DNA of 22,821 bases from a virus, in IMG/VR virus record IMGVR_UViG_3300042554_001072, positions 1-22,821 of that record. One strand, given 5' to 3'. This document shows, piece by piece, positions 1-22,821 of this stretch (the stretch's first letter is position 1; every line of letters starts with the position of its first letter). Below the pieces are notes generated by a model. It had not been told where the DNA came from, did no database searches, and saw nothing but the letters and a program-made list of their open reading frames with translations. The position numbers and the translations under genes are program-made.

Positions 1-2
1 GC

Positions 3-21
3 GGGGGGGGGGGGGGGGGGG
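3..21. repeat. Homopolymer of 19 G
   Basis: Nineteen consecutive G on the + strand at the extreme left of the window. It abuts, one base away, the -12 end of a leftward sigma-54-like element (23-39), so a leftward start site about 12 bases further on would lie inside the tract. A similar tract sits in the same relation to a second motif at 951-971. Its true length is uncertain because such runs are error-prone in sequencing and assembly. Confidence 0.85.
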
Positions 22-22
22 T

Positions 23-39
23 AGCAAGTTCTATGCCAA
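23..39 (-). promoter_or_regulatory. Sigma-54-like -24/-12 element, pair A, leftward
   Basis: On the minus strand this reads TTGGCATAGAACTTGCT, close to the sigma-54 consensus (TTGGCAC, four or five bases, TTGCW). The GG and GC landmarks are exactly 12 bases apart. It is the left arm of an imperfect palindrome with 47-63 and points out of the window. No activator site or transcript is visible, so promoter function is inferred. Confidence 0.5.
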
Positions 40-46
40 GGGGGAC

Positions 47-63
47 TTGGCACACTTCCTGCT
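47..63 (+). promoter_or_regulatory. Sigma-54-like -24/-12 element, pair A, rightward
   Basis: TTGGCACACTTCCTGCT has the -24 half intact and one mismatch in the -12 half (CTGC instead of TTGC), with correct 12-base GG-to-GC spacing. With 23-39 it forms a back-to-back pair; the inner arms TGCCAAG and CTTGGCA (34-40 and 46-52) could form a hairpin. Transcription from it would run antisense to the small gene at 98-280, so it may be a protein-binding or RNA-structure element rather than a promoter. Confidence 0.4.
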
Positions 64-69
64 GCGACC

Positions 70-106
70 CTGTACTACTACAAGGTCGGCGGCTGTATTA
101 GTACAG
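70..106 (-). repeat. Inverted repeat at the 3' end of a small gene
   Basis: CTGTACTA (70-77) and TAGTACAG (99-106) are perfect 8-base arms with a 21-base loop, overlapping the stop codon of the leftward gene at 98-280. It could be a 3'-end or termination hairpin for that gene, but no U-run follows on the minus strand. Confidence 0.35.
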
Positions 107-280
107 CTTGTTTAACAGTGTTGTATGTTTATCTAATGACTCTTCCCAGTATTTAGCACTAATGGGTTGTTGTAAATCATTAGACATTTGTATGTAAGTT
201 TTAATGTTATCAATCTTATCTAACAAAGCAATGCGAATAGTGGCGATTTCGTTAGCGTCAATGTCTTTGAGGTTATTCAT
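98..280 (-). CDS. Small KYW-motif protein, copy 1 (unknown function)
   Basis: A 60-residue, charged, probably all-helical protein with no recognised function. The main support that it is real is its paralogue at 1024-1227. Residues 13-59 align without a gap to residues 11-57 of that protein, with about 12 identities in 47, including the R-x-A-L pair, I-x2-I-K and S-x-K-Y-W. No signal peptide, membrane segment or cysteine is seen. It is the last gene of a leftward three-gene cassette (744 to 98), 15 bases after the stop of the preceding gene. There is no Shine-Dalgarno before the ATG at 280. Base composition is AT-rich like the phage genes to the right (about 27% GC over 181-240 by hand count), in contrast to the GC-rich gene at 556-744. 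Confidence 0.65.
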   Translation of the reverse strand: MNNLKDIDANEIATIRIALLDKIDNIKTYIQMSNDLQQPISAKYWEESLDKHTTLLNKLY

Positions 281-295
281 GTATTGTCTATTTGT

Positions 296-508
296 TTAGA
301 GTTGATTCAAGCGATACCCAGTACGAATACAAACTTGACCATACTGCTCTTGTATTGCGAGCCAGTATCTAGTGTAGTCTCCAACTGACAAACCCTTCGG
401 ATAAACGATAGGCGTGTTGTTTTCGTTCTTGCCCTTGAACACAGTAAGAACATATTTACGAATACCGCTCTTGTCAGTAAAACTAATAACTTTAGTAGTT
501 TGAGTCAT
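296..508 (-). CDS. Hypothetical 70-residue basic protein
   Basis: A small leftward gene with AT-rich coding, between the GC-rich gene at 556-744 and copy 1 of the KYW protein. The protein alternates beta-prone stretches (KVISFT, KYVLTVFKG) with a polar, aromatic C-terminal half and has one cysteine. I recognise no family. The ATG at 508 is preceded by an AT-rich leader without a ribosome binding site. The 47-base spacer between it and the upstream gene contains an AACAACAAC stretch, matching the spacer after the equivalent gene of the second cassette. This gene is absent from the second cassette. The tight packing makes it a likely gene, but nothing shows what it does. Confidence 0.5.
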   Translation of the reverse strand: MTQTTKVISFTDKSGIRKYVLTVFKGKNENNTPIVYPKGLSVGDYTRYWLAIQEQYGQVCIRTGYRLNQL

Positions 509-555
509 GTTATTTATAAAAAAGGTTTTAGTAGTATTTCTACTACTGTTGTTGT

Positions 556-744
556 TTAGTACTTCCTGTTGAACTCCAATTCGTAGATCTCACGACCGTA
601 CTTCGCAGTGACCGCCTCGCACTCGTCCTCGGTGAGTTCCCGATCCAACACCGTGCTGAATGCGCTGGTCACATACGCCACCGTCGAGGTGCCGCCGTCC
701 ACTTCGATGTCCACCAAGTCCGTCCAATCAATTTCAATCTTCAT
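556..744 (-). CDS. Acidic GC-rich small protein, ELTE motif, copy 1
   Basis: A 62-residue acidic protein with a beta-prone N-terminus (MKIEIDW, VDIEVDGG) and a helical C-terminal part containing ELTEDE and KYGREIYELEF. The type is reminiscent of short phage orphan proteins, but I cannot assign a family. Composition is strikingly different from its neighbours: about 62% GC over 601-660 by hand count, with C or G at most third positions. The 14 bases at 627-640, encoding the ELTE segment, recur exactly at 1329-1342 in the gene of the second cassette, suggesting common descent. It is probably the first gene of a leftward cassette with 296-508 and 98-280. The ATG at 744 lacks a clear ribosome binding site. 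Confidence 0.55.
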   Translation of the reverse strand: MKIEIDWTDLVDIEVDGGTSTVAYVTSAFSTVLDRELTEDECEAVTAKYGREIYELEFNRKY

Positions 745-769
745 GCGTACAGCTTACAGGCGGAGTCGC

Positions 770-821
770 GACTGGTCAACATCTTTCGATCAGTTTTTTT
801 TGGAAATCTTTGACTAGTCAA
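770..821. repeat. Paired palindromic GACTRGTCAA sites
   Basis: GACTGGTCAA (770-779) and GACTAGTCAA (812-821) are direct repeats 42 bases apart, and the second is the core of a perfect palindrome TGACTAGTCA. They lie just upstream of the leftward gene starting at 744, where an operator for its promoter would be expected. A further palindrome, ACCTAG-ACG-CTAGGT, is at 846-860. Binding function is inferred only. Confidence 0.3.
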
Positions 822-885
822 TGGGCGGTACTAACTACAGCCTGGACCTAGACGCTAGGTACTCAAAAATAGTTTGCGAAAAGCG

Positions 886-915
886 TTGACGCCGCGCACG
901 GGTCGAGGGTACAAT
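886..915 (+). promoter_or_regulatory. Sigma-70-like rightward promoter
   Basis: TTGACG at 886-891 and TACAAT at 910-915 are separated by 18 bases, a plausible -35/-10 pair. A 10-base-arm palindrome begins immediately after (916-939), where the start site would lie. No convincing rightward gene follows, so any transcript would be antisense to the cassette at 1024-1473. Confidence 0.35.
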
Positions 916-939
916 GGGGTATCCCAAGGGGGATACCCC
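916..939. promoter_or_regulatory. Perfect palindrome (possible operator)
   Basis: GGGGTATCCC (916-925) and GGGATACCCC (930-939) are perfect 10-base arms around a 4-base AAGG loop. Its position directly downstream of the sigma-70-like -10 element suggests an operator or a 5' hairpin. It runs into the C15/G21 tract. Confidence 0.45.
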
Positions 940-971
940 CCCCCCCCCCCGGGGGGGGGGGGGGGGGGGGG
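936..971. repeat. C15-G21 homopolymer junction
   Basis: Fifteen C (936-950) are followed directly by twenty-one G (951-971). The block is self-complementary and could fold on itself or form a G-quadruplex. The G side ends one base before the -12 end of a leftward sigma-54-like element (972-988), as at 3-39. It may be a natural slippage tract or a false join between two assemblies that each ended in a homopolymer. Confidence 0.8.
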
Positions 972-988
972 AGCAGCTTCCATGCCAG
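972..988 (-). promoter_or_regulatory. Sigma-54-like -24/-12 element, pair B, leftward
   Basis: On the minus strand this reads CTGGCATGGAAGCTGCT: the -24 half matches except for the T after GGCA, the -12 half has CTGC for TTGC, and GG-to-GC spacing is 12. It faces the leftward cassette that begins at 744. The predicted start site lies within the G21 tract. Promoter function is inferred. Confidence 0.45.
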
Positions 989-993
989 CGAGG

Positions 994-1010
994 TTGGCAC
1001 GGATCTTGCT
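994..1010 (+). promoter_or_regulatory. Sigma-54-like -24/-12 element, pair B, rightward (consensus match)
   Basis: TTGGCACGGATCTTGCT matches every fixed position of the published sigma-54 consensus (TTGGCACGRNNNTTGCW) with the correct spacing. It is back to back with 972-988. It would transcribe antisense to the small gene at 1024-1227, so either an antisense or leader RNA is made, or the motif serves another DNA-binding role. The flanking GGCAC and GTGCC (996-1000 and 1011-1015) could also pair as a hairpin. Confidence 0.55.
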
Positions 1011-1023
1011 GTGCCTTATTGTA

Positions 1024-1227
1024 TTACCATACAGGCTTACTGTTATTATCTAGTACATCAACAGCATTTGTCACTGATGCCATCTCGTCTTGCCAGTATT
1101 TAACAGAATCTTCTGCATTATGCTGTCGTGCAACAGCCAATTCTCTTTTGATAAACTCAATTCGATGTGACAAAGCAAAGCGCAAAACAAACTTAGTTTC
1201 GCTGTCGAGTTCGATATTGTATTTCAT
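1024..1227 (-). CDS. Small KYW-motif protein, copy 2 (unknown function)
   Basis: A 67-residue helical, charged protein, paralogous to the product of 98-280 over 47 gap-free positions, with R-x-A-L, I-x2-I-K and S-x-K-Y-W shared. Function is unknown, and there is no membrane segment or metal-binding motif. It follows the GC-rich gene at 1252-1473 after a 24-base spacer made largely of CAA repeats on the minus strand. Such an unstructured leader, without Shine-Dalgarno, ends at the ATG at 1227. The stop lies 14 bases from the pair B rightward motif. Recurrence of the same gene type in a second cassette is the best evidence that this block is coding. Confidence 0.65.
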   Translation of the reverse strand: MKYNIELDSETKFVLRFALSHRIEFIKRELAVARQHNAEDSVKYWQDEMASVTNAVDVLDNNSKPVW

Positions 1228-1251
1228 GTTGTTACTGTGTTGTTGTTGTTG

Positions 1252-1473
1252 TTAGATAGTGCCAACCAATTCCATCATCCAAGAGTCGCGACGTTCGTCA
1301 AACCAGATGTTCGCCTCGGCCTTCTCGGCCTCGGTGAGTTCCATCGGCTCGCCGCCCCAAGACTCAGGGATCGGTCCCGTGAAGTCTTCGATGCGGAGCG
1401 CGATCATGTCGCTCAGGTTGCTCTCGGCGCTGATGTTGGCGAAGTCGTTCGTCATGGAATTAAAGTAGGGCAA
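1252..1473 (-). CDS. Acidic GC-rich small protein, ELTE motif, copy 2
   Basis: A 73-residue acidic protein. The N-terminal half is polar. The C-terminal half contains ELTEAEKAEA followed by a tryptophan-rich helix (WFDERRDSW). Composition is GC-rich (about 67% over 1321-1380 by hand count), unlike the AT-rich KYW gene next to it. The 14 bases at 1329-1342 are identical to 627-640 in the first cassette and encode the same ELTE residues; the rest of the two proteins is barely similar. I assign no function. The start at 1473 is the first ATG; a second in-frame methionine (residue 7) is an equally possible start. A leftward sigma-54-like element sits at 1590-1606, about 117 bases upstream. Confidence 0.55.
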   Translation of the reverse strand: MPYFNSMTNDFANISAESNLSDMIALRIEDFTGPIPESWGGEPMELTEAEKAEANIWFDERRDSWMMELVGTI

Positions 1474-1540
1474 AACAGCTTTTCCGTCTAGAACTTTTCG
1501 CGTTTTTTTGCAGATTTTTTTCGCGCCTGAGCAGCGCAGG

Positions 1541-1557
1541 TTGGCACAGAACGTGCT
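1541..1557 (+). promoter_or_regulatory. Sigma-54-like -24/-12 element, pair C, rightward
   Basis: TTGGCACAGAACGTGCT has an intact -24 half, a -12 half with one mismatch (GTGC for TTGC) and 12-base GG-to-GC spacing. It points toward the endonuclease and glycosylation operon, whose first start codon is at 1948. It also contains GCAC-N5-GTGC, a small palindrome that could instead be a repressor site. Confidence 0.45.
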
Positions 1558-1589
1558 TGACAGGGGGGGTTTAATTTCACACTACACCT

Positions 1590-1606
1590 AGCACAAACCG
1601 TGCCAA
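1590..1606 (-). promoter_or_regulatory. Sigma-54-like -24/-12 element, pair C, leftward
   Basis: On the minus strand this reads TTGGCACGGTTTGTGCT: consensus -24 half with the following G, one mismatch in the -12 half, correct spacing. It lies upstream of the leftward gene starting at 1473 and faces 1541-1557; the two together form a long inverted repeat. Promoter activity is inferred from motif and position. Confidence 0.5.
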
Positions 1607-1688
1607 GGTGGGGGGAGGGGGGGTCAATCTCCCCCGTTTTTCTAAAAAAAAAGTTCTTGTTTTTTCTGCTGTAACGGCAGGGGGAGGG

Positions 1689-1847
1689 TATTCTCAATCT
1701 CTCAACTCATTTTATTCTATCTTATATATCCTCCAATATATCTAACTTACATATTATATCTATTATTCATATCTACTCTTTCTTATATCAATAACAACAC
1801 AACCCATACCCCCCTCTCCCCTATTAAAAAAAACAAAACAAAAACAA
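1689..1847 (+). other. G-free tract on the + strand
   Basis: There is no G on the + strand across 159 consecutive bases, and only three (1848, 1883, 1885) up to 1921. The first half is T/C/A-rich and the second is A-rich with C runs. A rightward transcript through it would have an almost unstructured leader. The sequence on its left is the opposite, with runs of six or more G, so strand asymmetry switches abruptly at 1688. Confidence 0.8.
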
Positions 1848-1947
1848 GCCATAATCCCCTATAAAAAACACAAAAAAAATCCGAGCCATATATTTTCTAA
1901 AACAAAAAAATAAAAAACAAAGCTTTTACATATACAATATACTATAA

Positions 1948-2304
1948 ATGTGTACAAAAGTCTGCCGCAATTGTAAAAACGAAAAAGACATAAGTGAATT
2001 CCCATTCTTTTCCACAAGTGACGCTGGCAGAAAGAACACTTGCAAGTCATGCAATAACGAACTCAGTTCATTGCGCCGAAACCTACGGTCTCAAAACCCC
2101 CCACCTCCTCCCGGCAACTGCCCGATATGCAAAAAACATACAACATCATGGATATTAGATCATTGTCACTTTGATAACACATTTCGCGGCTATATATGTA
2201 ACAGTTGTAATTTAGGAATTGGTAGATTCGATGATAATATTTCTATTCTTTATAACGCTATTGAATACTTAAATACGGAAAATAACATAGAATACAATAT
2301 ATGA
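1948..2304 (+). CDS. Recombination endonuclease VII-like HNH protein
   Basis: A 118-residue protein with two parts. Residues 6-35 hold C-x2-C and C-x2-C pairs (C6, C9, C32, C35), probably a zinc finger. After a proline run (51-55), residues 58-109 match the endonuclease VII/His-Me finger core: C58-x2-C61, LDHCH at 70-74, then RGYICNSCN at 80-88, giving the second cysteine pair C84/C87, and a helical tail ending NAIEYL. T4 endonuclease VII resolves branched DNA, but most phage relatives are uncharacterised and many are mobile HNH nucleases. Its stop overlaps the next start as ATGA (2301-2304), so it heads the coupled operon. The position at the junction between the odd left region and the operon would suit a mobile nuclease, but no flanking repeats or split host gene were seen. 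Confidence 0.85.
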   Translation: MCTKVCRNCKNEKDISEFPFFSTSDAGRKNTCKSCNNELSSLRRNLRSQNPPPPPGNCPICKKHTTSWILDHCHFDNTFRGYICNSCNLGIGRFDDNISILYNAIEYLNTENNIEYNI

Positions 2305-3116
2305 GAATATTGATTACTGGCGGCAGCGGCTTTATCGGCACTCATTTAATAAATAGGCTATTGAATGATGGACACGAAATATACAATCTAGATAAAATTC
2401 CCAGCCCCGCACTCCCTGATCATCGGCAAAAAATCATAGACATATTAGATATCGACATTAACGATAGTATATTTAATGATAAAGATTGTATTATTCATCT
2501 TGCTGCAATGGTAAGTGTGCCGAAATCATTCGACGATCCAGTAAACTGTTTTGGCAATAATACATTCTTGACTATAAAAATGTTATCAGCCGCCAAACTC
2601 CACAATATAAAGAAATTTATATTCTCATCTAGCGCAGCAGTATATGGTAATAAAGAAGGCGCAGTTAGTGAAACAGATGTTACAGAACCGAATAGCCCTT
2701 ACGGATTAGATAAGTTAGTGTCCGAAAAGTATATACAAATGTATTGTCAGTTGTGGGGCATTGATTATTTAATACTGCGATTCTTTAATGTATATGGCGC
2801 TGGACAGAATCCGCAATATGCTGGAGTGATAACTGCATTTAATATCGCCGCTCAGAAAAAAGAACCGCTGGTTATCTATGGAGACGGCGAACAAACTAGA
2901 GATTTTATAAGCGTAAATGACGTATGTAATTATATCTCTAGACTATCTATTCTTATGGTTAAGAACGAGATATTTAATATCGGAACCGGCAACTCTATTT
3001 CTATAAATTCTCTTGCAAAACAGTTTGGCAATAATATAATATACAAGGAAGCAAAGAAAGAAGTGCGTCATTCTTGCGCGGATATAAATAAATTATCTAA
3101 ATTATTAAATCAATGA
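2301..3116 (+). CDS. NAD-dependent sugar-nucleotide epimerase/dehydratase (short)
   Basis: An extended short-chain dehydrogenase/reductase of the GalE/UDP-sugar epimerase type, expected to convert a nucleotide sugar for the glycosyltransferases that follow. Visible features: Rossmann GGSGFIG at 7-13, a following acidic D31, the SSSAAVYG strand at 109-116 with the catalytic Ser/Thr region, Y134-x3-K138, and GDGEQTRDFISVNDV at 194-208, typical of UDP-hexose or UDP-HexNAc 4-epimerases. At 271 residues it is about 40 short of the usual 310-330. It stops inside the C-terminal substrate-binding part, just after the HSCADINKL segment, without the final helix. It overlaps both neighbours by ATGA (2301-2304 and 3113-3116). 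The exact substrate cannot be read from the sequence, and dehydratase activity is not excluded. Confidence 0.9.
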   Translation: MRILITGGSGFIGTHLINRLLNDGHEIYNLDKIPSPALPDHRQKIIDILDIDINDSIFNDKDCIIHLAAMVSVPKSFDDPVNCFGNNTFLTIKMLSAAKLHNIKKFIFSSSAAVYGNKEGAVSETDVTEPNSPYGLDKLVSEKYIQMYCQLWGIDYLILRFFNVYGAGQNPQYAGVITAFNIAAQKKEPLVIYGDGEQTRDFISVNDVCNYISRLSILMVKNEIFNIGTGNSISINSLAKQFGNNIIYKEAKKEVRHSCADINKLSKLLNQ

Positions 3117-6100
3117 ATTATTACGTTACTCATTGCGATTCTACATTTTTGAAATACGCCGAAAGACTGTTTGAAACATTATCTATCTTCAGTGATTATA
3201 AAATAATCTTTTATACAGTTGATTTTGATTATAAGTCTAAATTTAATAATGTAATTTGTATCAGATATGATTCCAGAAAAAACAATAGATTATTTGATGA
3301 TTATTCTTTAAATACCGCAAAAGACGATTCTTATAAAGCATTTAATGTTTTTTTTAAGCCGTTTATTGTTGATCATTTATTAAATATTCAAAAATATAAT
3401 AATGACAATTTTTGTTATCTTGACGCGGATTGTTTAGCGACTCTTAATTGCGATAACATATTTAAACAAGCTGATAACATAATTGATTATCCGTTAATGA
3501 ATAGATGTTGTTATGAATATTTGATAATGAATGGAGCTGGAGATCCTTTTATAGGTAATTCACTTGATCTAAATTTAACTTTAGAAAGTAAATTAATAAA
3601 ATTTCTAAATTATGATTTAAATTCAAGAAAACAATATGTTCAAACTGGCGTATTTTTATTTAATAATAAGTGTTTAGATTTTATTAAGCAATGGTGCGAA
3701 ATATGTTCTATTCCAGAGATAATAAAAAATTGGAAAATTTATACTCCATTTCATGAAGAAACAGTTGCCAATTGTATATTGTGGAAGAAAGATAAATTGA
3801 TTGATTTAAGTCAAAGCTTAATAAATTTGCCATATAATACAGAAAACTATGATTTATCTTTTCAGAAAATAAAAGAAATGATGGAATGTTTGAGTAACGC
3901 AAGATATGAAAAATATTTCTTGCAAACGTGGTGTTTGATTCCTGCGAAAAATGATTTAAAAAATTTATTTTTTTATCATGGTAAAGTTTCAGACAATGAA
4001 TATAATTATATCAAAGACTACATGACTAATAATTATTTATTAAAAATACATTCTCAATCTTTAGGTGATACTATTGCCGCAACTCCTACATTACGAAAGT
4101 TATATAACTCATACAATAAAAAAATAGATGTTATAACTCATCATCCTGATCTTTTTAAAAATAATAAATATGTAGATAAAATATATTCTTTTTCAGATTC
4201 GATAAATGAAAAATTTTATAAAGAAACGTTTAATACTTTTCTAGGAGTTGGTGGTGAAAAGAATAAATATGGAGTCGAAAAGAAACACAATACAATTGAT
4301 ATTCGGCAATTTCATGCGATAGATTTAGGCTTCACATTAAATGAAAAAGAAATGGAATATGATTATATTCCTGATGCTTATATTGAAATAGAAAACTTAC
4401 CGAACGATTATGTATGTCTACACGTTGCAAACACTTGGCCTTCTCGTACATACTCTGATGAAAATTGGCAAATTTTAATAAATAAATTAAATAATAAAAA
4501 TATACCTGTTGTTTTAATAGGAAAAAACGGTAATGAAACTGGTTTTTTCAATGTGGACAAGCCTACGAAAAAATTAAATTTTAAAAAGGGTTTGGATTTA
4601 ACTAATAAACTGTCTATTTCACAATGTTGGCATGTTATAAACAAATCAAAATATTTTGTGACTATGGATTCTGGTTTATTACATTTAGCTGGTACTACTG
4701 ATACTGAAATATTACAATTAGGTTCTTCAATAAATAATAAGTTACGCGCACCATACAGAAACAACTCTCAATCTTATAAATATAAATATATAAGTGGTTC
4801 GTGTGATATATTTTGCGCTTCTGATATTAAATATGGTGTTAAAGAATGGAAAACTATCCAAGGAATTCCTCCTCTTATAAAATGTTTAGAAGATAAAAGT
4901 AGTTTTGAATGCCATCCAAGTCCGCAATTAATTATTGATTGTATTTCGTTTGATGAAATGAATAATTCAAAAAATGAAAAAAAGAAATTTCTTTTTATTA
5001 CGCCGCATTTATCAACCGGAGGTAGTCCAAAATATTTAGAGTGGCTCATCTCCGATAAAATTAAAGAAAGTTATGAGATAAAAGTAATTGAATGGAATTT
5101 ATATAGTTGGCAATATAATGTTCAAAGAAATTCTGTAATTGAATTAGTTGGTGAAGATAATTTTATATCTTTAGGATCTTATGAAAATGACTCTTATTAT
5201 TTTTCACAAAAAGAAAAAGAAGTTATTGAGTTAATAAATAAATTTCAGCCAAATTATATTCACTTGAATGAAGTGGCTGAAAATTTTGCTATCAAAGGCA
5301 TGTCTGATAATTTCTTATCTCTTTTATACGATAAAAACAGAAAATATGAAATATATGAAACTTCTCATGCTAAAAATACAGTTTTTAAAGACAAGCGTTT
5401 TATGCCTGATGAGTTTTGGCCTGTAATTCAATATCATTATGATATAATTAAATCTTTCACAGATAATGTAAGATTAGTTGAATGTGATTTATCAAAAAAT
5501 ATAAGACCCGATAGAAATAAAACTTTAATTTCTTTAGGATTAAATCCTAATTATTTTCATGTTTTGCAGGTTGGTTTATTCAATAAAAATAAAAATCAAA
5601 AATATACATTTGATTTAGCTAAAAATCTAATTGATAAAAAAGTTCAATTTCATTTCGTAGGAAATTTATGTTATATTGATGAATGTAACATAGATAAACA
5701 ACAAATAAATTGTAAAATATGGGGCGAAAGAAATGATGTTGATATTTTTATGTCATGCATGGATTTATTTATTATGCCGTCTTTCGAAGAATTGAATCCG
5801 ATAGCTTTAAAAGAAGCTATTTCTTGGGACATGAAATGTTTTATAAACGATTGGCCTACAATTCAAAATAAATATAGAAACATAAATAATGTAGAATTTA
5901 TATCGAAAAATAATGTTCAAGATCATATAAATTCTAAAGCTAAACCTTTATTAAATAATTTTAAATTTACTGATGTAGAAAATAATAATATCATTTGTAC
6001 TTACTTTCCAACTCCCAAAATAGAAATTTTAGGCAATGATGATTGTTTTTATAATATAAAATTTTTAGATAAAGATACTGGTATTTTACATTATGAAACT

Positions 6101-7093
6101 AATTTAAATGTAAATATGTGGACAAGTTGTTCTATTGAATACTATTGTAATTGGAAAATTATTGTAAAAAATTTAAATACAAATTTAACATCAGAATTTA
6201 ATCACGATTTAGATGGTAAAAGAGTTAAAATAGTCAATGAATCTGCTAGTTTAGGAGATTCAATATCTTGGATTGCTGCCATCAATGAATTTCAAAAAAA
6301 TCATAATTGTAAAATTGATTATTATGGTCCTAGAAAGTTTTTATTCAAATCGGAATATCCAAATATAAATTTTTATAATTACTCTGATGTAATAAATGCT
6401 GATTATTATTCTCAATATAAAATTGGATGTTTTGCGCCTGATAATAAAAATTTATCTAGAACTGATTGGCGTAATTCAAATCTTCAAGAAATTGCTTTTG
6501 ATATTTTAGGATTAACTTGGAAAGAAGTTAAAACAAAAATTAAAATACCTAATAAATTAAAATTACCTTTTGATAAATATGTATGTATAGCTATACAATC
6601 CACATCTCAATCAAGATATTGGAATAACGATGATTGGAAAACAACAGTATCGTATTTAAAATCTTTAGGATATAAAGTGGTTTGTGTCGATAAAAATTAT
6701 AGTTTTGGTATCGAAAAATATTTTAACGTTTGCCCAGATAATGTTGATTATTTTGCTGGAGAGCATTCTCTTGATGAAATCATAGACATAATAAATAATT
6801 GTGAATTTTTTATTGGTTTAAGCTCGGGTTTATCATGGATATCTTGGGCATTAAATAAAAAAATAATTAAAATTAATAATTCTGTAAATCCAAATTTTGA
6901 GTTTTCTAATGACTATATAGTTCAGAATAAATTTGTTTGCACTAATTGCTTTACTAATAAAAAATATATTTTCAACGCTAAAGATTGGGCGTGGTGTCCA
7001 GAAAATAAAAATTTCGAATGTTCTAAATCAATTAGTTTTGATATGATGAAGACTCAAATCGATTTATTAATTAATAATATAAATGCACTATGA
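3113..7093 (+). CDS. Four-module glycosyltransferase with C-terminal TibC/BAHT-like domain
   Basis: A 1326-residue cytoplasmic-type protein without membrane segments. Modules, in order: (1) residues 1-300, a GT-A domain resembling GT8, with the D-x-D motif at 104-106 (YLDAD); (2) about 306-590, a GT9/heptosyltransferase-like GT-B domain with LGDTIAATPTL near 318 and a C-terminal half containing DSGLLHLAGT at 519-528; (3) about 625-945, a GT4-like domain with a donor-side half (HVLQVGLF at 816-823, then MPSFEELNPIALKEA at 888-902); (4) about 960-1320, a module starting YFPTPKIEIL that resembles the autotransporter O-heptosyltransferases TibC/Aah. Module 4 has SLGDSISW at 1046-1053, STSQSRYW at 1163-1170 and a cysteine quartet C1276, C1279, C1295, C1303 matching the iron-binding finger of that family. 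The product could add several sugars in sequence, the last module acting on a protein. It is translationally coupled to both neighbours. Module assignments rest on motif memory; which sugars are used is unknown. Confidence 0.85.
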   Translation: MNYYVTHCDSTFLKYAERLFETLSIFSDYKIIFYTVDFDYKSKFNNVICIRYDSRKNNRLFDDYSLNTAKDDSYKAFNVFFKPFIVDHLLNIQKYNNDNFCYLDADCLATLNCDNIFKQADNIIDYPLMNRCCYEYLIMNGAGDPFIGNSLDLNLTLESKLIKFLNYDLNSRKQYVQTGVFLFNNKCLDFIKQWCEICSIPEIIKNWKIYTPFHEETVANCILWKKDKLIDLSQSLINLPYNTENYDLSFQKIKEMMECLSNARYEKYFLQTWCLIPAKNDLKNLFFYHGKVSDNEYNYIKDYMTNNYLLKIHSQSLGDTIAATPTLRKLYNSYNKKIDVITHHPDLFKNNKYVDKIYSFSDSINEKFYKETFNTFLGVGGEKNKYGVEKKHNTIDIRQFHAIDLGFTLNEKEMEYDYIPDAYIEIENLPNDYVCLHVANTWPSRTYSDENWQILINKLNNKNIPVVLIGKNGNETGFFNVDKPTKKLNFKKGLDLTNKLSISQCWHVINKSKYFVTMDSGLLHLAGTTDTEILQLGSSINNKLRAPYRNNSQSYKYKYISGSCDIFCASDIKYGVKEWKTIQGIPPLIKCLEDKSSFECHPSPQLIIDCISFDEMNNSKNEKKKFLFITPHLSTGGSPKYLEWLISDKIKESYEIKVIEWNLYSWQYNVQRNSVIELVGEDNFISLGSYENDSYYFSQKEKEVIELINKFQPNYIHLNEVAENFAIKGMSDNFLSLLYDKNRKYEIYETSHAKNTVFKDKRFMPDEFWPVIQYHYDIIKSFTDNVRLVECDLSKNIRPDRNKTLISLGLNPNYFHVLQVGLFNKNKNQKYTFDLAKNLIDKKVQFHFVGNLCYIDECNIDKQQINCKIWGERNDVDIFMSCMDLFIMPSFEELNPIALKEAISWDMKCFINDWPTIQNKYRNINNVEFISKNNVQDHINSKAKPLLNNFKFTDVENNNIICTYFPTPKIEILGNDDCFYNIKFLDKDTGILHYETNLNVNMWTSCSIEYYCNWKIIVKNLNTNLTSEFNHDLDGKRVKIVNESASLGDSISWIAAINEFQKNHNCKIDYYGPRKFLFKSEYPNINFYNYSDVINADYYSQYKIGCFAPDNKNLSRTDWRNSNLQEIAFDILGLTWKEVKTKIKIPNKLKLPFDKYVCIAIQSTSQSRYWNNDDWKTTVSYLKSLGYKVVCVDKNYSFGIEKYFNVCPDNVDYFAGEHSLDEIIDIINNCEFFIGLSSGLSWISWALNKKIIKINNSVNPNFEFSNDYIVQNKFVCTNCFTNKKYIFNAKDWAWCPENKNFECSKSISFDMMKTQIDLLINNINAL

Positions 7094-8250
7094 ATCTTAA
7101 ATTTTGTTTATTAACTTCATTTTTTAATTCGGAACAATACATAGATTCATGCATAAAAAGCGTAATCAATCAAACTTATAAAAATTGGATTTGGTTTGTC
7201 TCAGATGACGGAAGTAGCGACAACACTAAAGAAATATTATTAAAATATTGCAAGGAAAATAATAATATTTTATACTTCAATCAAGCTTATAAATCTGAAA
7301 TAGTCAAAGATATAAATAAATTTGTTCCAGTCGATTGTGATTATTTTATGATGATGGACTCAGATGACAGACTTTTGCCTAATTGTTTAGAAGTGTATAA
7401 TCAAATACTACTAGATCATAAAGATGATAATATAGTTTTTGCTTCTTGCGAAGCTAGTTGGGTTTTTAACGAAGAGAGAAAATATCCTTCTTTATTATAT
7501 TTAGACACTTATGCTGATTTAGACAATAATAAAAAATTACATGATGGTTGTAATGTTTGGGGTAATCTCAGGGCTATTAAAAATTTACCAAATTTTAGAT
7601 TTATGGCTTTAGATTTACCTGATCAAGAGAAATATTATTGTTATCTTGAAGATCATATGTTTTACGTTCAGATGCAGAAATACGGCAATTACTTAAATAT
7701 AAAAAGAAATTTATATGATTTTATTCGCAGAGATGGCAGCACAAGTTCATCGACTGACATTTATTCTAATAGGAAAAATTTAGCTTTAGAACTCAGTAAA
7801 GATTTTATTAATCAAAACGATTTAATAGGAAAATCAGTAAAGACATGGGAAAAAAATTTATTTGATGATGCAAATTCTTTTTTAATGAGCGCATTTAATT
7901 TTGATTCCAAATCTAAAAAAATTAATTTTTTTACAAATTCAAAAAATGATTTTACTGATTTATATAAATTATATTATGATAAGTATTTAACAATTAATAA
8001 TATAGATCATTATTTTGAATACTGTATAATAAATACATGTTTTTATGATTTATCTGAGATAAAAGAGCTTTTTAAAATCATAAGATCAAAAAAACCTTTA
8101 GAGGTCGTTATTTACATAAATCATAATCATAAAAAAATTCAAAATCAAGATTTAATAGATGCAATTTATTCTGATTTATCTTTATGTTATTACTGGTCTG
8201 CTCATGGTCCATATACATATTATATTATAAATAAATATAATATTTATTAG
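7090..8250 (+). CDS. GT2 family glycosyltransferase
   Basis: A 386-residue GT-A fold glycosyltransferase. Evidence: N-terminal strand LLTSFFNSEQYI; SVINQTYKNW near 24-33, the classical GT2 helix and strand; DDGSSDNT at 39-46, for nucleotide binding; and MMDSDD at 88-93, the metal-binding D-x-D region. A long C-terminal part (after about 230) is lysine- and asparagine-rich with no recognised domain. There is no membrane segment, so it is probably soluble. It overlaps the preceding giant glycosyltransferase gene by ATGA (7090-7093), making it the last member of the coupled operon, and likely contributes one linkage to the same glycan. A 48-base AT-rich gap without a visible terminator separates it from the next gene. 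The donor sugar is unknown. Confidence 0.88.
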   Translation: MNLKFCLLTSFFNSEQYIDSCIKSVINQTYKNWIWFVSDDGSSDNTKEILLKYCKENNNILYFNQAYKSEIVKDINKFVPVDCDYFMMMDSDDRLLPNCLEVYNQILLDHKDDNIVFASCEASWVFNEERKYPSLLYLDTYADLDNNKKLHDGCNVWGNLRAIKNLPNFRFMALDLPDQEKYYCYLEDHMFYVQMQKYGNYLNIKRNLYDFIRRDGSTSSSTDIYSNRKNLALELSKDFINQNDLIGKSVKTWEKNLFDDANSFLMSAFNFDSKSKKINFFTNSKNDFTDLYKLYYDKYLTINNIDHYFEYCIINTCFYDLSEIKELFKIIRSKKPLEVVIYINHNHKKIQNQDLIDAIYSDLSLCYYWSAHGPYTYYIINKYNIY

Positions 8251-8298: not shown

Positions 8299-8682
8299 AT
8301 GATTTCACTTCAAGTCGATGAAGCTTATGCTTTTGATTATCTAAGTATTCTAGAAGTAAAAAAACAAAAATCTTCTAATAACAATCAAGCTTGGTTAAAT
8401 TGTTGGTCACATTTACAAAATCAATTCGAATCAGAAAAATGGTTATCCATGATATACTCAGAAGAATATAAAAACATGGTCAAAGCTAATTTATTAACTT
8501 TTGAAGCCGTAGATAAAGCTAAAAATGACGAAGTGACCGCTCGTTATGTCGATTATTGTAATTATCAAAGACACATAGCTAAAGAAAATTTTCAAAAGAA
8601 ATTCTTTAATACTAATTTGTCTGAGTTGAAGATAGGTTACGAAAAATATACTGATAATAATCACATTGCTTTTCTAATGTAA
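8299..8682 (+). CDS. Small helical protein of a glycosyltransferase-associated type
   Basis: A 127-residue, mostly helical protein. The first segment, with FDYLSILEVKKQK at 12-24, weakly recalls DUF6165-like proteins that accompany glycosyltransferase genes; a C-terminal helix with RYVDYCNYQRHIAKENF fits that pattern. I would not assign a function on this alone. It begins after a 48-base AT-rich gap following the GT2 gene, with no Shine-Dalgarno, and is probably cotranscribed with the glycosylation operon. Its last 71 bases overlap, tail to tail, the 3' end of the leftward GT4 gene (8612-8682), so both stop codons lie within the opposite gene. Confidence 0.65.
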   Translation: MISLQVDEAYAFDYLSILEVKKQKSSNNNQAWLNCWSHLQNQFESEKWLSMIYSEEYKNMVKANLLTFEAVDKAKNDEVTARYVDYCNYQRHIAKENFQKKFFNTNLSELKIGYEKYTDNNHIAFLM

Positions 8683-9670
8683 ATTTTAAAATAGCATTTT
8701 TATAGCAATTTTCTGGATTAATAAATTTACCTATATTTTGTATAGCGTAAATAATATCATTTGCGCTTGAACATCTTAGTCCAGTTTCTCCTTGCAATAC
8801 AGTCTCCGTAAAACCTCCAAAATTTGTAGTTATAGTTGGGGTTCCAGAAAATTGCGCTTCAATGATAGTCCAATTACACGGTTCAATAAATAATGAAGGA
8901 GCCAATAGAAACTTAGCCTCGCTGAGTAAATACATTCTCTTAATAGGATCAACGAAACCAACAAATTGACAATATTTAGTATCTTTTAAACCAAGTATGT
9001 TTGGGCCAGCAAAAATTATATCTTGTTTTAAATCGTTACATATATCATATACAAGTTTAGCCCCTTTTTCTTCTATAATTCTGCCGAGAAATAAAGCCGT
9101 ATTTGATTTTTCTTTTTTATATAAAAAATCATTAGGATCAAAACCTGGATAAACTACAAATTCAGATCCTAAACCTATGTGTGTGCATGAATGGCCGTGC
9201 ATTTTATGCATTTGACTATGTGTTTCAAATATTTTGACGGGCGCAAACATGCTATCATAACCAATACTTGGTTCTACTACAATCGCTTTATTATAAAAAT
9301 GTTTTACGCATGATTCGTGGGCAAATCCAAACCAGCATAATATAAATTCTTTATCTGATTTAATTCTTTTATTTAATTCTTTCGTACAATTTTCATTAAA
9401 AATTTTAACCGCGTTTGTATTTACGTTTTGATCAAAACCTTTATTCTTCCAATCATTTATGTTGCCATAACTCTGTTTTAATATATCATTATTAATAACA
9501 TTAATATGTTCTGTGCAATTAACACTAGAGTCTTCATGACCATAATGATAAACAGTATGACCTCTTTTAGTCATTTCTTCACAAAATTTATAAACCTTTT
9601 GAACGAAGGCGCACAAAGAAATATCTTTTCTTGTCGGTGAATATGGAACGCTCAAACAGTGAAAAACCAT
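8612..9670 (-). CDS. GT4 family glycosyltransferase
   Basis: A 352-residue GT-B glycosyltransferase, the only leftward gene in the right-hand 20 kb. The C-terminal half shows the GT4 signature: FLGRIIEEKG at 194-203, a donor-binding strand DIIFAGP at 217-223, and the E-x7-E motif at E263/E271 within IEPCNWTIIEA, followed by SGTP and GGFTETV. The N-terminal half is the acceptor side (VPYSPTRKD near 8-16; EMTKRGHTVYHYG at 32-44). The unusual CEEMTKRGH context is typical of enzymes that strip host or phage glycans with nucleotide-sugar donors, but the substrate is unknown. The start at 9670 faces the PhoH gene start at 9698; the 27-base divergent spacer contains ACAATATAGTGTAA, AT-rich on both strands. 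Its 3' end overlaps the small gene at 8299-8682. Confidence 0.88.
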   Translation of the reverse strand: MVFHCLSVPYSPTRKDISLCAFVQKVYKFCEEMTKRGHTVYHYGHEDSSVNCTEHINVINNDILKQSYGNINDWKNKGFDQNVNTNAVKIFNENCTKELNKRIKSDKEFILCWFGFAHESCVKHFYNKAIVVEPSIGYDSMFAPVKIFETHSQMHKMHGHSCTHIGLGSEFVVYPGFDPNDFLYKKEKSNTALFLGRIIEEKGAKLVYDICNDLKQDIIFAGPNILGLKDTKYCQFVGFVDPIKRMYLLSEAKFLLAPSLFIEPCNWTIIEAQFSGTPTITTNFGGFTETVLQGETGLRCSSANDIIYAIQNIGKFINPENCYKNAILKFTLEKQCDYYQYIFRNLSSTQTN

Positions 9671-21808: not shown

Positions 21809-22141
21809 ATGGCGACACAGTTATCTATTATAAGAGGCGACACTTTTCCTACGCAGACAATAACTGTAACATCTGATAGTTTAGATTTTACAAATATAAC
21901 TTGCACTGGGCAAATTCGCCCACACCCAGATGGAACTTTATTATATACTTTTGTACCAACTGTTGTATCTGGAGTAAATGGCACCGGAGTCGTAGAATTT
22001 AATTTTCCAGCTAGTGTTACAAGAGGTTTTCCGCCAATTAATTTGTATGGTGATTTGCATTTTTATTCTACTGGCATTATGGATCGTACTCTTTTTGAAT
22101 TTAGATTAAATGTTTTACCTGATGTAACGCAATTATCGTAA
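21809..22141 (+). CDS. Beta-rich structural protein upstream of a fibre gene
   Basis: A 110-residue beta-rich protein. The ATG at 21809 is chosen; an earlier in-frame TTG (21761) would start inside the terminator hairpin and is rejected. The N-terminus SIIRGDTFPTQTITV and the alternating strands that follow (ITCTGQIRPH, VEFNFPASV, LFEFRLNVLP) recall baseplate or tail-tip proteins of the BppU N-terminal type, which anchor receptor-binding modules. There is no signal peptide or cysteine pair. Its stop (TAA) overlaps the start of the fibre gene (TAATG at 22139-22143), so the two are coupled and their products may act together. The BppU resemblance is from pattern memory only. Confidence 0.65.
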   Translation: MATQLSIIRGDTFPTQTITVTSDSLDFTNITCTGQIRPHPDGTLLYTFVPTVVSGVNGTGVVEFNFPASVTRGFPPINLYGDLHFYSTGIMDRTLFEFRLNVLPDVTQLS

Positions 22142-22821
22142 TGTCAAATATAAATGTCAATACTTCCTCTAATAACAATCAGATAAATGTAACCGTTGGA
22201 GGAGGATCGAATTCTACTGTTGTTGATAGCAGTAATAATAATTCTATTTTAGTTCAATCTGTAGCGCCAGCAGGTTCCACTTCTAAAATAGTCGAAAGAG
22301 GACCAGCAGGAACTTCAGGAACTAGCGGTACTTCTGGAACGAGTGGTACATCAGGCACTAGTGGAAGCTCAGGTACATCTGGGTCTTCAGGTACATCAGG
22401 GTCATCAGGCACAAGCGGCTCATCTGGAACTAGCGGTTCTTCAGGAACAAGTGGAAGTTCTGGAATTGATGGCACTTCTGGATCAAGTGGAACATCAGGA
22501 AGTTCAGGCACATCAGGATCATCAGGCACAAGTGGCTCATCTGGTACTAGCGGTTCATCAGGAACCAGCGGTAGCTCAGGAATAAATGGTACTTCAGGAT
22601 CTTCAGGAATAAATGGAACGTCAGGCTCTAGTGGAATCTCTGGTACTTCAGGAACATCTGGCTCTTCAGGAACCAGCGGTTCTTCAGGAACGAATGGGAG
22701 TTCTGGAATCGATGGAACTTCAGGTTCTTCAGGCATCAATGGAACTTCTGGTTCTAGTGGTATAAATGGAACTTCTGGGTCTAGCGGAACATCTGGAACT
22801 TCCGGTTCAACAGGAACAAGT
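22141..22821 (+). CDS. Collagen-like Gly-X-Y fibre protein (5' part)
   Basis: An open frame from the ATG at 22141 to the window end, 227 codons without a stop; the gene continues beyond. Residues 1-53 are asparagine-rich and polar (SNINVNTSSNNNQINV), likely the attachment domain. From residue 54 (GPAGTSG) the sequence is a continuous Gly-X-Y repeat, almost all GTS or GSS triplets, with GID, GIN and GIS triplets interspersed. There is no proline or hydroxylysine-type site, but threonine and serine are dense, suiting O-glycosylation, which can stabilise such triple helices. It is probably a tail or head fibre. Synonymous codons vary widely between repeats. It is coupled to the preceding gene by TAATG. 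The antisense frame is also open but is a by-product of the repeat. Confidence 0.85.
   Translation, partial: MSNINVNTSSNNNQINVTVGGGSNSTVVDSSNNNSILVQSVAPAGSTSKIVERGPAGTSGTSGTSGTSGTSGTSGSSGTSGSSGTSGSSGTSGSSGTSGSSGTSGSSGIDGTSGSSGTSGSSGTSGSSGTSGSSGTSGSSGTSGSSGINGTSGSSGINGTSGSSGISGTSGTSGSSGTSGSSGTNGSSGIDGTSGSSGINGTSGSSGINGTSGSSGTSGTSGSTGTS

Follow-up and report, generated by a model that had tools for sequence, protein, structure and literature searches.

To our knowledge, glycosylation of phage virions has been little explored. The closest described enzymes are the bacterial TibC/Aah glycosyltransferases (BAHT; TIGR04414; PDB accession no. 4rap), whose partner proteins are autotransporters. For TibC, the roles of individual residues have been described (PMC4358343): Arg286 contacts the adenine of ADP-heptose and is essential, and TibC without its N-terminal barrel no longer modifies TibA. 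Its dodecamer needs a hydrophobic thumb tip, Phe265-Val266. Among viruses, multi-domain glycosyltransferases (GTs) are known in chloroviruses. PBCV-1 encodes A111/114R, with three GT domains in 860 aa, and A064R, which performs two rhamnosyl additions plus a methylation, and these proteins build the virion glycan in the cytoplasm (PMC7826918). The phage protein described here (the chain) is likewise a viral multi-domain GT, in this case joined to a TibC-type protein glycosyltransferase. Unlike its host phage, PBCV-1 is a virus of eukaryotic algae that carries an N-glycan on its capsid protein, and no TibC-type module has been reported for it.

The initial annotation of this DNA stated that no phage enzyme was known with this exact order of modules, and none was found in the literature searched, which lay mostly outside subscription journals. 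Similar fusions have been deposited without remark, namely a 985-aa protein of Virus NIOZ-UU157 and WWT39291.1 of the isolated Microcystis phage Mel-JY01. The latter (1226 aa, annotated as "methyltransferase FkbM") has an N-terminal GT4 module and, at its C-terminus, a TibC barrel and a TibC GT, with a Pfam TibC_1st match below its cut-off. Unlike the chain, it has no detectable module A or B.

The multi-glycosyltransferase locus

The stretch analysed (the window) is an entire IMG/VR contig of 22,821 bases, belonging to a tailed phage from a metagenome. The ORF encoding the chain overlaps the epimerase gene on its 5' side and the GT2 gene on its 3' side by four bases each. The features of the locus are as follows:

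2301-3116, + strand: GalE-like NAD-dependent sugar-nucleotide epimerase/dehydratase, 271 aa (Pfam Epimerase, E=1.8e-54; PHROG 540)
3113-7093, + strand: multi-glycosyltransferase ORF, 1326 aa, ATG start, conserved over its full length in relatives
3113-3967, + strand: module A, aa 1-285, GT-A fold, retaining GT8/GT24/GT6-like (alignment, model, Foldseek against PDB)
3968-4972, + strand: module B, aa 286-620, GT9 heptosyltransferase-like, homologous to D (Pfam, alignments, hhalign)
4988-5887, + strand: module C, aa 626-925, GT4, GT-B (Pfam, alignments, Foldseek)
5888-6247, + strand: module N, aa 926-1045, eight predicted strands, counterpart of the TibC N-terminal β-barrel
6248-7090, + strand: module D, aa 1046-1326, TibC/Aah-type protein O-glycosyltransferase catalytic domain
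6938-7021, + strand: iron-finger cysteines C1276, C1279, C1295 and C1303 (TibC C339, C342, C358 and C370), invariant
7090-8250, + strand: GT2 glycosyltransferase, 386 aa (Pfam, E=5.5e-20)
8612-9670, - strand: stand-alone GT4 glycosyltransferase, 352 aa, a conserved gene bordering the variable locus

The epimerase, which matches NCBIfam models (GalE among them) only below cut-off, is the probable donor supply for the chain. The GT2 gene is followed by genes for the reverse-strand GT4, PhoH, a sigma-like factor, an ERCC4-domain nuclease and the terminase, then by the capsid region and a repeat protein. Judged by position and order, the genes after the terminase are probably those of portal, protease and capsid. 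The nearest named terminases are ~26% identical to that of the window. A chimeric origin of the window was considered and rejected, as the independent contig L002 matches positions 6-2400 at 99.6%.

The first part of the window (1-1950), which is also present in L002, has a GC content of 0.41-0.47 versus 0.25 in the GT operon and contains few plausible genes. A dispersed intergenic element was also noted, with several copies per contig. It consists, in order, of a sigma70-like promoter (TTGAC...TACAAT), the palindrome GGGGTATCCC-AAG-GGGATACCCC, a C-run and a G-run of ~14-25 bases each, and AGCAA...ATGCCAA. Copies are located at 1-64 and 885-987 of the window, at 977-1039, 1819-1907 and 2292-2385 of L002, and at 1218-1321, 2047-2127 and 2458-2541 of L006.

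Profile and structure searches bore out the proposal that four GT modules lie in series within this single ORF. They also showed a fifth domain that had been missed, the TibC-type N-terminal β-barrel at residues 926-1045. The families originally named (GT8-like, GT9-like, GT4-like and TibC-like) stand for B, C and D, and for A by fold alone. Alignments confirmed that each of A, B, C and D retains recognisable catalytic motifs; the modules did not prove to mismatch their families, nor were catalytic residues missing from most of them. For A, B and C, the roles of these residues follow from what is generally known of the GT8, GT9 and GT4 families. The chain as a whole found no match in a search of PHROGs. 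It appears to be soluble, the highest mean hydropathy over 19 residues being 1.1, and no membrane segment was predicted by hydropathy.

Module A gave no match to Pfam or to PDB sequences, and 13 of its members scanned singly gave no glycosyltransferase Pfam match at E-values up to 10; because the sequence libraries were silent, structure was used for this module. Its AlphaFold model (pLDDT 91) matched xyloside xylosyltransferase (GT8; E=3.6e-8), UGGT (GT24), GT6 enzymes and glycogenin (GT8) in a Foldseek search of the PDB. Module A has its fold and the DxD motif in common with xyloside xylosyltransferase 1, glycogenin and UGGT, with identities to GT8/GT24 enzymes of 7-15% and a TM-score of about 0.5, so that its sequence does not allow assignment to a CAZy family. 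In the alignment D104-x-D106 is invariant and QTGVFLFN, HEET and H289 are conserved. The call of "GT8-like" is thus upheld by the model as a GT-A fold with DxD, and is not matched by any sequence similarity to the GT8 family.

Module B was confirmed as GT9-like by Pfam Glyco_transf_9 (PF01075; E=5.3e-22, 78.8 bits against a cut-off of 22, best stretch 429-552), with D319, R445, D519, H524 and Cys 564, 568, 591 and 600 invariant in the alignments. An hhalign comparison of B with D (E=3.4e-12) showed homology spanning the catalytic domain and the Cys cluster, and the chain therefore contains two TibC/GT9-type modules. For module C, Pfam Glycos_transf_1 (PF00534; E=4.9e-8, 33.1 bits against a cut-off of 26.4) agrees with the GT4-like assignment. 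Its E893-x7-E901 motif is invariant in the alignments, and its portion of the C-N-D model matches the GT4 enzymes BshA and WaaG (Foldseek).

The TibC-type C-terminal end

The C-terminal end, originally described as TibC/BAHT-like, is matched by NCBIfam TIGR04414 (Aah/TibC) with E=1.7e-78 and 264 bits against a curated cut-off of 200, and this model was the best match, over its cut-off, in all 15 of 15 related records. Module D matches the sequence of TibC (4rap) with E=1.1e-46. The C-N-D model (pLDDT 82.5) aligns with the TibC structure over 381 alignment columns for a chain of 381 residues, barrel included (Foldseek; E=9.8e-27, TMt 0.85). Profile, alignment and model thus identify N and D together as a complete TibC homologue, sharing with TibC/Aah the barrel, the GT-B domain, the catalytic Asp, the iron-finger cysteines and the equivalents of Trp305 and Thr226. 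N and D differ from TibC/Aah in residing in a phage, behind three other GT modules. D1049 (TibC Asp110) and the four iron-finger cysteines are present in 14 of 14 aligned phage C-N-D sequences, down to 33% identity. T1164 (TibC Thr226) and W1242 (TibC Trp305) are invariant as well, and position 1168 (TibC Lys230) is K or R (R1168 in the window).

Two features of TibC are absent. The position of the adenine-contacting Arg286 is occupied by Ile, Val or Met in the 14 aligned D modules, and that of the thumb tip Phe265-Val266 by KY in the window. In the bacterial homologues from Paraburkholderia and Gluconobacter, Arg286 is retained and the thumb pair is hydrophobic, as MV and VV; the Paraburkholderia homologue adjoins an AIDA-repeat protein. 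With Arg286 replaced, ADP-heptose cannot be assumed as the donor, and D may use a non-ADP donor or be less selective for the base. A search of these phages for ADP-heptose synthesis genes gave matches resembling RfaE domain II in G001 and G002 only; being partial and below cut-off, they were rejected as evidence. The thumb residues required for the TibC dodecamer are not conserved in the window. Despite both absences, sequence and model place D among the TibC-type enzymes.

Relatives of the chain and module shuffling

Related phages were checked for the same architecture, and the chain was found at full length in independent contigs, so its arrangement is not a product of chance. It is present at the same locus in ~20 IMG/VR contigs, with 46-100% identity, and lies upstream of the GT4-PhoH-terminase block in each. 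The A-B-C-N-D form of the window is shared by L003, L008-L010, L026 and L028-L030, and is extended by a GT25-like module in L004-L007. An FkbM methyltransferase is inserted between B and C in L013 and L031, and L012 has gained both FkbM and a GT2-like module (these assignments were made with Pfam, those of GT2 and GT25 being weak in places). Module B has been lost in L035 and L036, A is duplicated in L014, and L016 encodes the chain as three ORFs in module order. The chain is also split in L014 and L015, where a homologue of the window's GT2 is fused to D; in all three contigs the splits fall exactly on module borders. Genes for a carbamoyltransferase (L026, L040), a sulfotransferase (L039) or a methyltransferase (L014) are found next to the chain in relatives. 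In L013 (7028-7888), L014 (10483-11307), L015 (10546-11394) and L031 (14926-15762), the chain is followed by a further D-type TibC domain that stands alone.

The chain diverges faster than its surroundings: the window and G004 share 90-99% identity in their capsid-region proteins (83% in one small protein) but 45-80% in the chain modules, and the N barrel is the fastest-diverging module. The first 100 residues of L003 and L006 are identical and are followed by divergent sequence, a pattern that we interpret as the trace of recombination. Only one GTDB contig carries the chain, the 6.4-kb L040 (RDOE01000149.1) of a Lokiarchaeota MAG, which encodes a carbamoyltransferase and an A-B-C-N chain of phage-like identity. 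It is most likely a mis-binned phage contig, and the idea that the chain as a whole is of cellular origin was rejected. Plasmid relatives among the matches listed cover the TibC part only, and none of the records reaches 80% coverage of the query.

The chain had also been likened to an assembly line. In other, unrelated phages the modules are separate adjacent genes in one cluster (L192, L196, L198, L199); together with the splits at module borders, this makes a single pathway likely, and to that extent the comparison is sound. It would fail for the linear order of the modules as the order of assembly if D, like TibC, is the module that attaches the first sugar, since synthesis would then begin at the C-terminal end.

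Candidate acceptor and proposed function

A candidate acceptor is encoded at the end of the window, in the slot after the capsid genes:

22141-22821, + strand: collagen-like G-[ST]-[ST] repeat protein, truncated where the contig stops (Pfam Collagen)

Ser and Thr make up 58% of its repeat part, and a G-[ST]-[ST] repeat protein occupies the same slot in 8 of the 8 contigs that reach it, the window included. In the distant phage L039/G020, the cluster that contains an A-C-N-D chain also encodes, a few genes upstream, a repeat protein of 2237 aa. Repeat ORFs lie close to the chain in L191 and shortly upstream of the GT4...TibC protein in Mel-JY01. The strict repeat pattern was absent from 50 random IMG/VR records and present in 9/22 and 5/11 module-bearing records, many of them fragmentary, counts that are not independent, as they come largely from one related phage group. 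Proteins with G-[ST]-[ST] repeats are common among phages, and a B- or D-type module was present in the fetched stretch at 7 of 120 pattern loci among the matches listed; the repeats thus do not need the chain enzyme. The association is one-way, with many repeat-bearing phages having no such module in the fetched stretches.

In Mel-JY01 (PP395634.1, 739-2298; L264, 1-1759), WWT39287.1 is annotated on the minus strand of the G-[ST]-[ST] repeat. The + frame there is open and continues into WWT39288.1, and WWT39287.1 was probably called on the wrong strand. The window has an antisense open frame of the same kind at 22254-22820.

With a TibC-type end on the chain and a repeat protein in all relatives that could be checked, the chain probably sugar-coats the phage particle. 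From the architecture, the conserved motifs, the module shuffling, the fast divergence and the co-occurrence with the repeat protein we infer an activity, an acceptor, an order of action and a biological role. The most likely role, and in our judgement a probable one, is that the chain O-glycosylates a Ser/Thr-rich virion protein of the phage itself. That the chain builds and attaches a short glycan, as first suggested, is plausible, since D belongs to a family of protein O-glycosyltransferases. In the host cytoplasm, D with its N barrel would place the first sugar on Ser/Thr of the protein, as a TibC/Aah-like enzyme, and A, B and C would lengthen it to a short oligosaccharide. The adjacent epimerase and GT2 would assist, as would methyl-, carbamoyl- or sulfotransferases in relatives. 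The partner of TibC/Aah is an autotransporter; none was seen for the phage chain, and the likely acceptor is instead the G-[ST]-[ST] repeat protein encoded right after the capsid genes. Through gain, loss and recombination of modules, the glycan would differ among otherwise near-identical phages. A stronger form of this proposal, in which Ser/Thr of the phage's collagen-like fibre receive a single sugar or decoration from each module and recombination switches the glycan coat of near-identical phages in a manner resembling serotype switching, is offered tentatively.

The GT9 and GT4 families are typical of LPS, and it has to be weighed whether the glycan modifies the surface of the host (its O-antigen, its capsule or one of its surface proteins) and excludes competing phages. 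Such a role is the usual proposal for GT clusters of aquatic myophages, GT8-rich ones included (PMC7029224), and for jumbo cyanophages (PMC7824862). We consider it unlikely for this locus, which adjoins packaging and capsid genes: the chain is without a membrane segment, no flippase, polymerase or ligase was recognised among the neighbours scanned, and D is in a protein O-glycosyltransferase family.

The modules might instead share a polypeptide for co-expression only, as several GTs each with a different acceptor and no concerted chain. Fusion alone is no proof of concerted action, and modules that are freely lost, duplicated and split imply that no fixed set is required. Against this, the order A-B-(FkbM)-(GT2-like)-C-N-D-(GT25) is kept in all main-lineage fusions and likewise in the split ORFs of L016, and we hold the explanation to be quite improbable. 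Phage GTs acting on DNA are known. Glycosylation of phage DNA bases, or of a small metabolite as in some cyanophage carbamoyltransferase clusters interpreted as secondary-metabolite systems (PMC7824862), is nevertheless very improbable here, given the TibC-like D and, for DNA, no DNA glucosyltransferase match and no base-hypermodification genes in the window.

In O-glycosylation of the virion, the proposal we prefer, a single polypeptide joins a protein-directed TibC-type GT to chain-extending and decorating modules, varies by shuffling and travels with a Ser/Thr-rich candidate acceptor. If true, this would explain the cargo of some of the collagen-like G-[ST]-[ST] proteins that abound in phages and would provide a genetic read-out of phage glycan diversity. 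Mel-JY01, an isolated phage with a similar pairing, makes the glycosylation reading testable now.
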